NCBI RefSeq assembly: GCF_007846085.1
Contig: NZ_VOEJ01000001.1
Coordinates: 186,001-250,000, forward strand
Length of the DNA: 64,000 nt
Direction of reading: 5' to 3'
Source of the DNA: Mucilaginibacter pallidiroseus
GTDB lineage: Bacteria; Bacteroidota; Bacteroidia; Sphingobacteriales; Sphingobacteriaceae
Shown here: piece by piece, positions 1-3,022 of the stretch
Layout: each line of letters opens with the position of its first letter
Position numbering within the stretch: the first letter of the stretch is position 1
The notes under the pieces: model-generated
What the model saw: only the letters and a program-made list of their open reading frames with translations
What the model was told of the DNA's origin: nothing
Databases searched by the model: none
Made by a program: the position numbers and the translations under genes

Positions 1-713
1 CGAATAATGGCTTCGGTGTAAGGGATCAGCTGATCTTCCGGTAAAAAGTCCTCAACAATAGTTGCCAGTAATGGCTGCGCGCCAAGGCCACCGGCAAGGT
101 TTACTTTAAAGCCACGTTCGCCCTTATCATTTAACTTTGGAATAAAGCCAAGGTCGTGGATGTAGCTAAAAGCGGTATCCTTATCGCTTGATGAGAATGA
201 GATCTTGAACTTGCGGCCCATTTCCTGGCAAATAGGGTTGCGTAGAAAATATTCGAACACGGCCTGCGCATAAGGCGAAACATCAAAAGGCTCCTCCGGA
301 TCGATACCGGCAGTAGGTGAGGACGTTACATTGCGCACGGTATTACCGCAAGCCTCACGCAGGGTTATATCATCCTGCTCCAATTCGGCCCACAATTGCG
401 GTGTGCGGTCGAGGCTAACGTAATGAATCTGGATATCCTGGCGAGTGGTGAGGTGCAGGTTACCGCTGCCATATTCATCGGCAATGTCGGCTATCTTTAA
501 TAATTGTTTGAAGGTAACTTTACCAAATGGAAGCTTAATGCGTACCATCTGCACACCAGGTTGGCGCTGTCCATACACACCACGCGCAAGGCGCAGGCTC
601 CTGAACTTTTCGTCGTGTATTTTACCCTCTTTAAACGCACGGATTTTCCTCTCAAGGTCAATTATATCCTGTTCAACTATAGGGTTCTCCAGTTCCGTCC
701 TGAAGCTTTGCAT
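1..713 (-). CDS. Assimilatory sulfite/nitrite reductase hemoprotein (5' part; runs off the left edge)
   Basis: About 237 N-terminal residues are visible; the 3' part lies outside the window. The translation begins MQSFRTELENPIVEQD and carries the ferredoxin-like half-domain typical of the NirA/sulfite reductase family, including GVYGQRQPGVQMVRIKLP and HLTTRQDIQIHYV, followed by the start of the siroheme/4Fe-4S domain with EACGNTVRNV. The family reduces sulfite to sulfide (or nitrite to ammonia) with six electrons in the cytoplasm. The upstream leader codes for Cys-Cys-Met and ends at a terminator, which favours the sulfite role. The ATG at 713 lies about 27 nt after the terminator T-run. Siroheme and cluster cysteines would be in the missing C-terminal half, so sulfite versus nitrite specificity cannot be decided from protein sequence here. 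Confidence 0.85.
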   Translation of the reverse strand, partial: MQSFRTELENPIVEQDIIDLERKIRAFKEGKIHDEKFRSLRLARGVYGQRQPGVQMVRIKLPFGKVTFKQLLKIADIADEYGSGNLHLTTRQDIQIHYVSLDRTPQLWAELEQDDITLREACGNTVRNVTSSPTAGIDPEEPFDVSPYAQAVFEYFLRNPICQEMGRKFKISFSSSDKDTAFSYIHDLGFIPKLNDKGERGFKVNLAGGLGAQPLLATIVEDFLPEDQLIPYTEAII

Positions 714-739
714 ATCGTTATCCCGTTAAATTATATTAT

Positions 740-770
740 AAAAAAGCCTCTTCACTTTGGCTGAAGAGGC
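740..770 (-). terminator. Intrinsic terminator inside the reductase leader (attenuator candidate)
   Basis: On the minus strand a perfect 9-bp stem (GCCTCTTCA / TGAAGAGGC, 7-nt loop GCCAAAG) is followed at once by six T. It sits between the leader ORF stop (804) and the reductase ATG (713), so it would stop transcription before the gene. The upstream minus-strand gene (arginine decarboxylase) already has its own terminator at 1431-1462, so this one is best explained as a conditional attenuator. Confidence 0.8.
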
Positions 771-803
771 GTATGTCATCATTACACATCGGTTACAGCC
801 GTA

Positions 804-866
804 TTAAAATTGCTGCATACAGCAGAAAATTAGGTTGTTACAATATGTAGTATGCGAATTTGCCAT
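804..866 (-). CDS. Cysteine-rich 20-aa leader peptide upstream of sulfite/nitrite reductase
   Basis: A 21-codon ORF (ATG at 866, TAA at 804-806) encodes M-A-N-S-H-T-T-Y-C-N-N-L-I-F-C-C-M-Q-Q-F. Three of its 20 residues are Cys, and Cys-Cys-Met are consecutive near the end, an extreme density of sulfur amino acids. It starts 11 nt after a TAnnTTTG box and is followed 33 nt later by an intrinsic terminator, the layout of amino-acid attenuation leaders. The Cys-Cys codons lie inside a short hairpin (TGCTG/CAGCA, 811-824). A downstream GGCTG (796-800) could pair with CAGCC at the apical side of the terminator (759-763). No Shine-Dalgarno site is visible. The peptide itself probably has no function; its translation would be the sensor. 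Inferred, not shown. Confidence 0.65.
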   Translation of the reverse strand: MANSHTTYCNNLIFCCMQQF

Positions 867-877
867 TGTTAATAACC

Positions 878-885
878 CAAATATA
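878..885 (-). promoter_or_regulatory. -7 promoter box (TATATTTG) for the leader/reductase transcript
   Basis: The minus strand reads TATATTTG, an exact match to the Bacteroidota -7 consensus TAnnTTTG. Transcription would start near 873, giving a leader of about 160 nt that includes the leader peptide and terminator. A convincing -33 TTTG is not seen; just upstream is CTATAGTATG, possibly a regulator site. Confidence 0.5.
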
Positions 886-1430
886 TACATACTATAGGGA
901 AATTGTAGTATTTATTTAAAAAAAGTCTGTTTTGATTCTGTGATGACGGTTGGGAGAGGGGGATATAGGAATGCGTTGTTAACTTCATCTGTAAGCACTT
1001 GCATACCGTAACCTCTTAAATGCGGCATAGTGTAACGCACGGTTAGTACAGGCATTGCTAAAGCAGAAACTTTCAAAGGGCGTTACCAAGCCGCGACTTT
1101 TATTAACTTATTGATTGTTTTAATTTGTGTTAATGAGCTCGCTATGGCTCGGTTTTCTTTGGTTCCTTTCTTTTTTGAGAGAAAAAAGAAACGAACATCC
1201 ACAGGCGTCACAGAAATCACTACCATTACTAACGTAGCACTGATGAACGGTTTTTATTTTAATGAACGTTGGTCCGCTCATTGCCGCGGAGGCTACTTCT
1301 TTTCTCTTGAAAGAAAAGAGGCAAAAGTTCAAGACGAAAAAATCCTTCTCCGCACAACCCCCTTGCATCGGCCCCGGTTTTTCGTCGAGGCCACCGCTCT
1401 TCGGTATCTAAAAGCCGATAGGAGTAGTAT
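886..1430. repeat. Long intergenic region with oligopyrimidine/oligopurine inverted repeats
   Basis: No convincing gene is seen here. Open frames exist on both strands but translate to Phe/Lys-rich sequence without domain features. Two inverted repeats stand out: TTTCTTTTTT / AAAAAAGAAA (1167-1191, 5-nt loop) and CTTTTCT / AGAAAAG (1299-1318, 6-nt loop), about 110 bp apart. This arrangement resembles dispersed noncoding repeats common in this phylum. No copy was seen elsewhere in this window, so its repeat status is inferred. Confidence 0.45.
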
Positions 1431-1462
1431 AAAAACTAAAAAGGCACCGCTATTAACGGTGC
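1431..1462 (-). terminator. Terminator of the arginine decarboxylase gene
   Basis: The minus strand has a 6-bp GC-rich stem (GCACCG/CGGTGC, 7-nt loop) followed by CTTTTTAGTTTTT. It lies about 25 bp past the stop codon at 1487 and fits a rho-independent terminator for the minus-strand gene. Confidence 0.7.
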
Positions 1463-1486
1463 TTTAACAATTTTATCAGTTAAATA

Positions 1487-2881
1487 TTAAGTTGTATAAC
1501 CTAATATCTTCAATACCTGTTTACTGTTTTGCTCTTCGCCAAATACTTCAAAGTTGAACGTCTCGTCCCGGTTACGGCGAATAATGACATGCTTAGGTGA
1601 TGGCAGCAGGCAATGGTGTATACCGCCATATCCGCTTAATACTTCCTGGTATGCGCCTGTATTAAAGAAGCCCAGGTATTGCACTTTACGGGTTTTAGGC
1701 ATGTAAACGCTGTTCATGTGCGCTTCCTGGTTGTAATAGTCTTGCCCGTCGCAGGTTATACCACCAAGGTTAACGCGCTCGTACTCGCTGTCCCAGTTGT
1801 TTACCGGCAGCAGAATGTATTTTTGGTTAAGCGCCCAAACATCAGGCAGGTTGGTAATGAACGAGCCATCCAGCATTAACCAGCGCTCGCGGTCGTTTTG
1901 CTGCTTGCGGCCAAGTACCTTATATAAAATACCAGATGCCTCCGCAACGGTGTATTTACCAAACTCGGTAATAATATCCGGTTCGATGGTATCATGCTCG
2001 GCACAGATCTCTTTGATACGGCTTACAATCTCGTTGATCATGTACTCGTAATCAAAGTCGAATACCAACGAATCTTTAAACGGCATGCCACCGCCAATAT
2101 CCAAAGTATCCAGATGTGGATTAACCTTTTTAAACTTGCAGTAAAGTGTTACGTATTTCTCCAGTTCGTTCCAATAGTATGGTGTGTCAGAAATACCCGA
2201 GTTGATGAAGAAGTGAAGTAACTTTACCTGGAAGTTTGGATTCTGCTCAATTTTATTGTGATAAAAATCAATCACATCTTCCTGGCGAACACCAAGGCGC
2301 GACGTGTAAAACTGTGAGTTTGGCTGCTCTTCGGATGCGATACGGATACCAAGATTACATGGGGTATCCAGTTCGATCTCATCGTCATAAAGGTTGAACT
2401 CTTCTTTATTATCCAATACCGGGATGATGTTGGTAAATCCGTCATGCAGCATATCTATGATATACTGTTTGTATTGGAAGGTTTTGAAGCCGTTGCAAAT
2501 TACGGTCATATCCTTGCTCAGGGCGCCTTTCTTCTCAAGGGCTTCGATCATGGGCATATCAAAAGCCGACGATGTTTCCAGGTGGATATCGTTACGCAAA
2601 GCCTCTTCAACAATATGTTTAAAGTGGGAACTTTTTGTGCAATAGCAGTATTTATAGGTACCGCGATAGTTGTTTTTGATGATGGCCTGCTGAAACAACA
2701 GTTTAGCCTGCTGTATTTTCTTGCTCACAATGGGCAAATACGTGAAACGCAACGGCGTGCCGTAAGTTTCAATCATCTCCATCAAATTGAGGTCGTTAAA
2801 GTATAACTCATCCTCTATTATCTCAAAACCGTCTTGTGGAAAACCAACACTCAGGTCAAGAAATTCCTGGTAACTCTGCAT
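1487..2881 (-). CDS. speA: Biosynthetic-type arginine decarboxylase (PLP, fold III)
   Basis: This 464-aa protein belongs to the short Bacteroidota group of fold-type III PLP decarboxylases annotated as arginine decarboxylases. It would convert arginine to agmatine, the first step of polyamine synthesis, in the cytoplasm. The PLP lysine is K83 in YCTKSSH. A glycine-rich phosphate-binding loop (DIGGGMPF) spans about 261-268, EFGKY is at 306-310, and the C-terminal ITCDGQD motif supplies C377 and the substrate-binding Asp. It is much shorter than the E. coli SpeA of about 630 aa but typical for this group. A TACATTTG box (2898-2905) lies 16 nt upstream of the ATG. Two guanidino/ureido-processing genes lie upstream on the same strand (80-140 bp gaps). 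Decarboxylation of a related substrate such as lysine or diaminopimelate is a less likely alternative. Confidence 0.85.
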   Translation of the reverse strand: MQSYQEFLDLSVGFPQDGFEIIEDELYFNDLNLMEMIETYGTPLRFTYLPIVSKKIQQAKLLFQQAIIKNNYRGTYKYCYCTKSSHFKHIVEEALRNDIHLETSSAFDMPMIEALEKKGALSKDMTVICNGFKTFQYKQYIIDMLHDGFTNIIPVLDNKEEFNLYDDEIELDTPCNLGIRIASEEQPNSQFYTSRLGVRQEDVIDFYHNKIEQNPNFQVKLLHFFINSGISDTPYYWNELEKYVTLYCKFKKVNPHLDTLDIGGGMPFKDSLVFDFDYEYMINEIVSRIKEICAEHDTIEPDIITEFGKYTVAEASGILYKVLGRKQQNDRERWLMLDGSFITNLPDVWALNQKYILLPVNNWDSEYERVNLGGITCDGQDYYNQEAHMNSVYMPKTRKVQYLGFFNTGAYQEVLSGYGGIHHCLLPSPKHVIIRRNRDETFNFEVFGEEQNSKQVLKILGYTT

Positions 2882-2897
2882 TCTTTAAAATTTGGTG

Positions 2898-2905
2898 CAA
2901 ATGTA
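2898..2905 (-). promoter_or_regulatory. -7 box (TACATTTG) of the arginine decarboxylase gene
   Basis: Exact TAnnTTTG match on the minus strand, 16 nt before the ATG at 2881; the expected start point is just downstream. No clear -33 element is visible. Confidence 0.5.
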
Positions 2906-3022
2906 ATTTTAAAACGCATTGATTGGTTACATGTTGCCTATAATTTTTATTGCCGAATTGTAATTTATTTCAGCACCCCAGAGCTGTTAATTTTGTTGAT
3001 AAATTGCTTCTGATGCGCGGTC

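Follow-up and report, generated by a model that had tools for sequence, protein, structure and literature searches.

The leader of the sir operon in Mucilaginibacter pallidiroseus is, in all likelihood, a ribosome-mediated transcription attenuator that would sense scarce charged cysteine tRNA, as judged from sequence comparison. The window analysed is a 64,000-nt stretch of DNA, at one edge of which lies sir, the first gene of an operon for making cysteine precursors from sulfate. Upstream of sir are an ORF with runs of codons for the end product of the pathway (Cys), a predicted intrinsic terminator between this ORF and the first gene, and, at the sequence level, an antiterminator that excludes the terminator and would be controlled by the position of the ribosome. 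Amino-acid attenuation has hardly been described in Bacteroidota. If the reading is true, it would explain, in terms that can be tested, how the decision to make cysteine from sulfate is taken in many bacteria of the class.

The leader in the window

The elements of the leader are listed in Table 1. The order of -7 box, ORF, terminator, and reductase start codon given in the initial annotation is right in every coordinate, and its 20-codon ORF with one Cys codon followed by Cys-Cys-Met is found as described (Cys9, Cys15, Cys16, and Met17). The perfect 9-bp terminator with six T is likewise present, in the MFE and centroid folds alike. The leader as a whole has a folding z of -2.02, with 5 of 200 shuffles equally stable. 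A search of window positions 1–3000 with the families of Rfam 15 (T-box, SAM riboswitches, and others) returns six weak matches, none at the gathering score and none in the leader.

Table 1 Features of the sir leader in the window
Feature	Position	Strand	Basis
Promoter-like element TACTAC..TATAGTATGTATATATTTG with -7 box TATATTTG (885-878) at its end	878..910	-	Sequence and comparison
Predicted transcription start	873	-	From box position -12 to -5 in Flavobacterium psychrophilum (PMC9723704)
Leader peptide ORF, 20 codons, MANSHTTYCNNLIFCCMQQF	804..866	-	Sequence; Cys in 85/86 leaders
Cys9 codon of leader ORF	842-840	-	Sequence
Tandem Cys codons TGC TGT, Cys15 (824-822) and Cys16 (821-819), then Met17	819..824	-	Tandem Cys in 64/86 leaders
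Small hairpin over Cys codons	824-811	-	Present in window sequence
Putative antiterminator segment GGCTG, 21 nt past first base of second tandem Cys codon	796..800	-	Complementarity, comparison
CAGCC, terminator 5' arm and loop, partner of GGCTG	759..763	-	Complementarity; terminator-shared base covaries with both partners
Predicted intrinsic terminator, perfect 9-bp stem and 7-nt loop (770-746), six T (745-740)	740..770	-	Sequence, folding
sir, first gene of operon, nitrite/sulfite reductase family; ATG at 713, continues past window edge	3..713	-	

Conservation of the cysteine codons

We compared 134 non-identical upstream regions of sir, 125 from near relatives (the window, the named loci, and same-genus genomes) and nine from other families. 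The 80 named loci are the best 80 of 442 from one contig scan and come from Mucilaginibacter, Pedobacter, Parapedobacter, Sphingobacterium, and a few others; further loci were taken from relatives and from a class survey, in which 94 of 396 genomes have a sir match at E 1e-60. Leaders were selected by a rule blind to cysteine: a start codon no more than 28 nt from a -7-like box, an ORF of 13–30 codons, and downstream a hairpin with a T-run, at -8 kcal/mol or below and no more than 70 nt from sir. The rule selects 86 of the 134 regions, every one a near relative, leaving 48 regions (39 of the 125 near relatives) with no rule-defined leader.

Cys is encoded in 85 of the 86 leaders and at least twice in 80. 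Tandem Cys codons occur in 64, compared with a mean of 5.4 and a maximum of 12 for shuffled ORFs (200 rounds). TGC (119) and TGT (112) are used about equally, indicating that the meaning of the codons is kept and not the letters of the RNA. The Cys-Cys codons are therefore conserved among orthologous leaders, as the initial annotation anticipated, though with the leader itself missing from 39 near-relative regions. The terminator, anticipated along with them, is part of the selection rule, but tandem Cys codons together with a terminator recur in other families (see below).

Leader presence changes 16 times on the sir tree, on which gain and loss are not distinguishable. The single Cys-free leader (L013) keeps its terminator, and two further loci (L006 and L017) keep a distant promoter box upstream of sir with no start codon close behind; all three appear to be cases of decay.

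Spacing and pairing of the proposed antiterminator

For each leader we determined the best complement between the stretch past the last regulatory Cys codon and the 5' arm of the terminator. In 69 of 85 leaders, the complement begins 13–24 nt beyond the codon's first base, compared with a mean of 25.6 and a maximum of 36 in shuffles (near relatives, 200 rounds). In toeprinting practice, a stalled ribosome covers about 12–13 nt past the first base of the A-site codon. Therefore, the segment lies just outside a ribosome stalled on the Cys codons. Measured from the last base of the stop codon, its start is at -11.5, -1.5, and +5.5 nt (10th, 50th, and 90th percentile), a place that would be covered by a terminating ribosome. 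The mean helix score of the 85 leaders (15.0) is above every shuffle round (mean 12.6, maximum 13.2); the individual helices are weak, the median leader being matched by 18.5 of 100 shuffles. The same holds for the 5-bp GGCTG:CAGCC pairing in the window, which 13 of 100 shuffles equal and which is not unusual alone. Its weight comes from the comparison: the two segments, paired already in the initial annotation, are complementary, show compensatory changes among relatives, and keep their spacing to the Cys codons from leader to leader.

The compensatory changes are found in alignment A1, which holds 30 of the 86 leaders, 20 of its 30 rows having been chosen for showing the helix in that register. 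Of the antiterminator cells in A1, 85.6% pair, and none of 500 shuffles reaches this value or the covariation score; slid to other registers, at most 51.9% of the cells pair. Two of the five measures (both-side pair changes and further pair types) are not above the shuffles. The terminator columns are 96.7% paired. In columns 34/72/85, the base common to terminator and antiterminator covaries with both its partners: the combination is G/C/G in 14 rows, A/T/A in 8, G/C/A in 5, and G/T/A in 3. On the sir tree these columns change 4, 3, and 6 times, giving 2–3 independent pairs. The proposed covariation of antiterminator and terminator is thus seen as compensatory changes in A1 and falls short of significance on the tree, because the key columns change only 3–6 times. 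Alignment A3, which holds the wrong stretch for L076 (inside sir), is left out of every count.

The small hairpin over the Cys codons, which the initial annotation also proposed, exists in the window but is not conserved as a pause element in A1, in which 58.5% of the cells pair, compared with 58.4% in shuffles. RNAalifold draws a 4-bp hairpin over the Cys codons in A2 and A4, where a lineage-specific role is possible. Pairing between the ORF and the antiterminator segment, which would act as a protector, scores 11.6, slightly above shuffles (10.2; 0 of 60 as high).

With ample cysteine, the ribosome would pass the Cys codons and cover or melt the antiterminator segment, so that the terminator would form and transcription would end after about 130 nt. 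With scarce cysteine, the ribosome would stall on the Cys codons with its leading edge just short of the antiterminator segment, and the segment would pair with the 5' arm of the terminator, allowing RNA polymerase to read through into sir-cobA-cysG/TauE-cysH-cysD-cysN. Because of the Met codons next to the Cys run, a shortage of methionine may act likewise.

Stalling at the Cys codons might instead affect sir translation or Rho, the kind of control proposed for the polycysteine ORFs of mycobacteria, with the hairpin not being a switch. The mycobacterial cysteine leaders function without an obvious terminator, according to the account of them in PMC1262725, and translational attenuation is cited for them (PMC13236596). 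However, in the sir leader the ORF is followed by a T-tailed hairpin, and a complement of the hairpin's 5' arm keeps a fixed spacing to the Cys codons; we consider this alternative very unlikely.

Composition of the leader peptides

Met is enriched two-fold in the leaders. In the 64 tandem-Cys leaders, Met occupies 63 of 256 positions within two codons of the Cys run, compared with 41 of 970 elsewhere. This clustering fits a joint gauge of both sulfur amino acids and is suggestive of one. Of the sulfur-amino-acid sensor first proposed, the cysteine part is upheld by sequence comparison, and the clustering of Met near the Cys run is what points to the methionine part.

Cys and Met are metal ligands, and their joint enrichment would also suit a small Cys-rich protein with a metal- or redox-binding function, followed by an ordinary terminator. 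However, the peptide sequences are freely variable except for Cys and the Met close to it, and a functional protein leaves unexplained the fixed distance between the Cys codons and the complement of the terminator arm; we give this explanation almost no weight. Arrest peptides are a known phenomenon, and the nascent peptide, whose Cys and Met could bind metal, might arrest the ribosome by metal or redox state and not by tRNA charging, but the peptide varies in the part expected to occupy the exit tunnel, and the genes downstream are for cysteine synthesis, making this explanation highly improbable.

Promoter-like element, leader start, and an Rrf2-family regulator

In 37 of the 86 leaders, the start codon of the leader ORF follows TTTG by exactly 4 nt, and in 85 by no more than 14 nt (the rule allowed 28 nt). 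In F. psychrophilum, the box is placed at -12 to -5 (PMC9723704). With a 4-nt gap, the A of the ATG would therefore be at +1; with the same box position, the predicted 5' UTR in the window is 7 nt. Leaderless mRNAs make up 5.5% in F. psychrophilum (PMC9723704), and 5' UTRs shorter than 10 nt about 3.7% in B. thetaiotaomicron (PMC7366714). Early loading of the ribosome at such a start would help ribosome and polymerase to keep step.

Of the 125 near-relative regions, 97 contain the promoter-like element, compared with 3 of 1250 shuffles, the pattern having been drawn by eye from the same regions. It is also present in 28 of the 39 leaderless near-relative regions, in 15 at 43–81 nt from sir. 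A gene for an Rrf2-family protein lies upstream of sir in the same orientation, 144–4902 nt off, in at least 48 of 79 named loci, of which 30 have a leader and 18 lack one; the count is a lower bound because some flanks are short. The protein scores above cutoff with TIGR00738, and with the CymR model reaches 76 bits, below the cutoff of 195 (for example, L031:5417-5851). In the window's own genome, an 87% identical Rrf2 protein is encoded about 60 kb from sir (G000:C1:125122-125550, L148). We infer that the Rrf2-family regulator is the predicted partner of the promoter element, where it probably acts as a second layer of control.

The element and the Rrf2 gene at leaderless loci, together with the frequent changes in leader presence, which would often be losses, could be taken to mean that the regulator is the sole control and the leader a relic. 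This is scarcely credible, since the Cys codons and their spacing are kept far above shuffles, unlike in a relic.

Occurrence in other families and before other genes

Outside the window's family, 26 of 77 loci, spread over 15 of 25 families, have a tandem-Cys ORF with a terminator ahead of sir, compared with 1 of 770 shuffled regions. The caller used for the 77 loci takes the nearest ATG, so that its peptides are often shortened, and its matches include the doubtful L163 (family f2), L204, and L216 (units >300 nt from sir). Many of these leaders have runs of 3–5 Cys codons. Of 34 units, 29 have a complement starting 13–24 nt past the final tandem Cys codon; shuffles give 8.3 on average and never more than 16. 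The helix score is 19.1, compared with 12.9 in shuffles, and several helices are perfect over 7–9 bp. Eight loci (L140, L146, L147, L177, L191, L206, L208, and L211) carry two units of tandem-Cys leader and terminator in series, the first unit of L146 being without the 13–24-nt spacing. In the remaining 51 of the 77 loci the combination is absent; in families f54 (0/12), f12 (0/8), f15 (0/5), and f68 (0/4), no tandem-Cys ORF with a terminator lies directly upstream of sir. The tandem units, the losses, and the frequent Rrf2 neighbor make a natural set for studying how an attenuator is gained, doubled, and lost.

These patterns admit a broader reading, which we advance tentatively and consider slightly more apt to fail than to hold as a whole: Bacteroidia may have a widespread, Shine-Dalgarno-free sulfur-amino-acid attenuator whose start codon lies within about 10 nt of the RNA 5' end, in which Met and Cys would form a joint gauge and a fixed ruler of about 16–20 nt between the last Cys codon and the antiterminator would set the switch. 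Some families would have two gauges in series, and in the window's family an Rrf2-gated promoter would let the operon read regulator state and tRNA charging together.

The signature is rare before other genes. It precedes 1 of 49 genes in the window (sir is uncounted, as it continues past the window edge). In 20 fetched loci it precedes 8 of 194 genes, seven of the eight being sir. Among cysS, cysK-like, and cysE-like loci from 21 genomes (63 of 78 scanned), no gene of at least 150 aa has a tandem-Cys leader with a terminator. Seven same-genus genomes have an adjacent pair of cysE-like and cysK-like genes (L257-L263 and L287-L293). The best cysK match in the window's genome is a longer protein (454-aa frame) below the family cutoff.

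Relation to described leaders

The trp and his leader-peptide attenuators have regulatory codons and mutually exclusive antiterminator and terminator. The sir leader shares these features but differs in its cysteine signal, its weak protector pairing, and its near-leaderless start.

The nearest described design, on the published account of it, is the uORFC-8-2 motif before cysS of Rhodobacterales, for which ribosome-mediated attenuation is predicted (PMC8632094). Both have a short tandem-Cys ORF, a terminator with a U-run, and predicted ribosome-mediated attenuation. However, uORFC-8-2 belongs to Alphaproteobacteria and has its Cys codons within a conserved first stem (PMC8632094), whereas the sir leader belongs to Bacteroidia and a sulfate-assimilation operon, has no conserved Cys-codon stem in A1, and starts near the predicted RNA 5' end. 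The leader in the window is not a member of the motif: it precedes sir and not cysS, and none was found in the scanned cysS loci.

The polycysteine ORFs of mycobacteria likewise lie before cysteine genes and have a leaderless start (PMC1262725). No conserved terminator is reported in that paper's account of them (PMC1262725), and the attenuation cited is translational (PMC13236596). The sir leader, in contrast, has a predicted terminator with an alternative pairing and so does not match a terminator-free translational attenuator of the mycobacterial type. The resemblance to the Cys-run leaders of mycobacteria and Rhodobacterales suggests that cysteine codons have come to serve as a sensor on more than one occasion.

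General suggestions of leader-peptide attenuation have been made for Bacteroidota (PMC9723704, PMC7366714). In F. psychrophilum, short ORFs are described before amino-acid operons, with elements at pheA and hisG named (PMC9723704); the main text of that paper has neither 'sulfate' nor 'sulfite' and uses 'cysteine' only for a protease, and its supplementary tables may hold a cysteine case. Our search of the open-licence literature found no report of a cysteine attenuator in Bacteroidota. We judge that the sir leader differs from described leader-peptide attenuators by its cysteine signal in this phylum.

The sir operon and flanking sequence

The full operon, read in L002, consists of six genes in the same direction: sir, cobA (uroporphyrinogen-III methyltransferase), a fusion of siroheme-synthase N-terminal and TauE/SafE domains, cysH, cysD, and cysN. 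The fusion is a single protein of 500 aa (L002:6358-7860, minus strand). The sir product belongs to the nitrite/sulfite reductase family and has no NCBIfam equivalog at its cutoff; from the operon context, its substrate is presumed to be sulfite. Between sir and a decarboxylase gene, the non-coding positions 1120-1400 of the window contain several A-/T-rich self-complementary segments around AAAAGAAA-like runs, which may represent a dispersed repeat.
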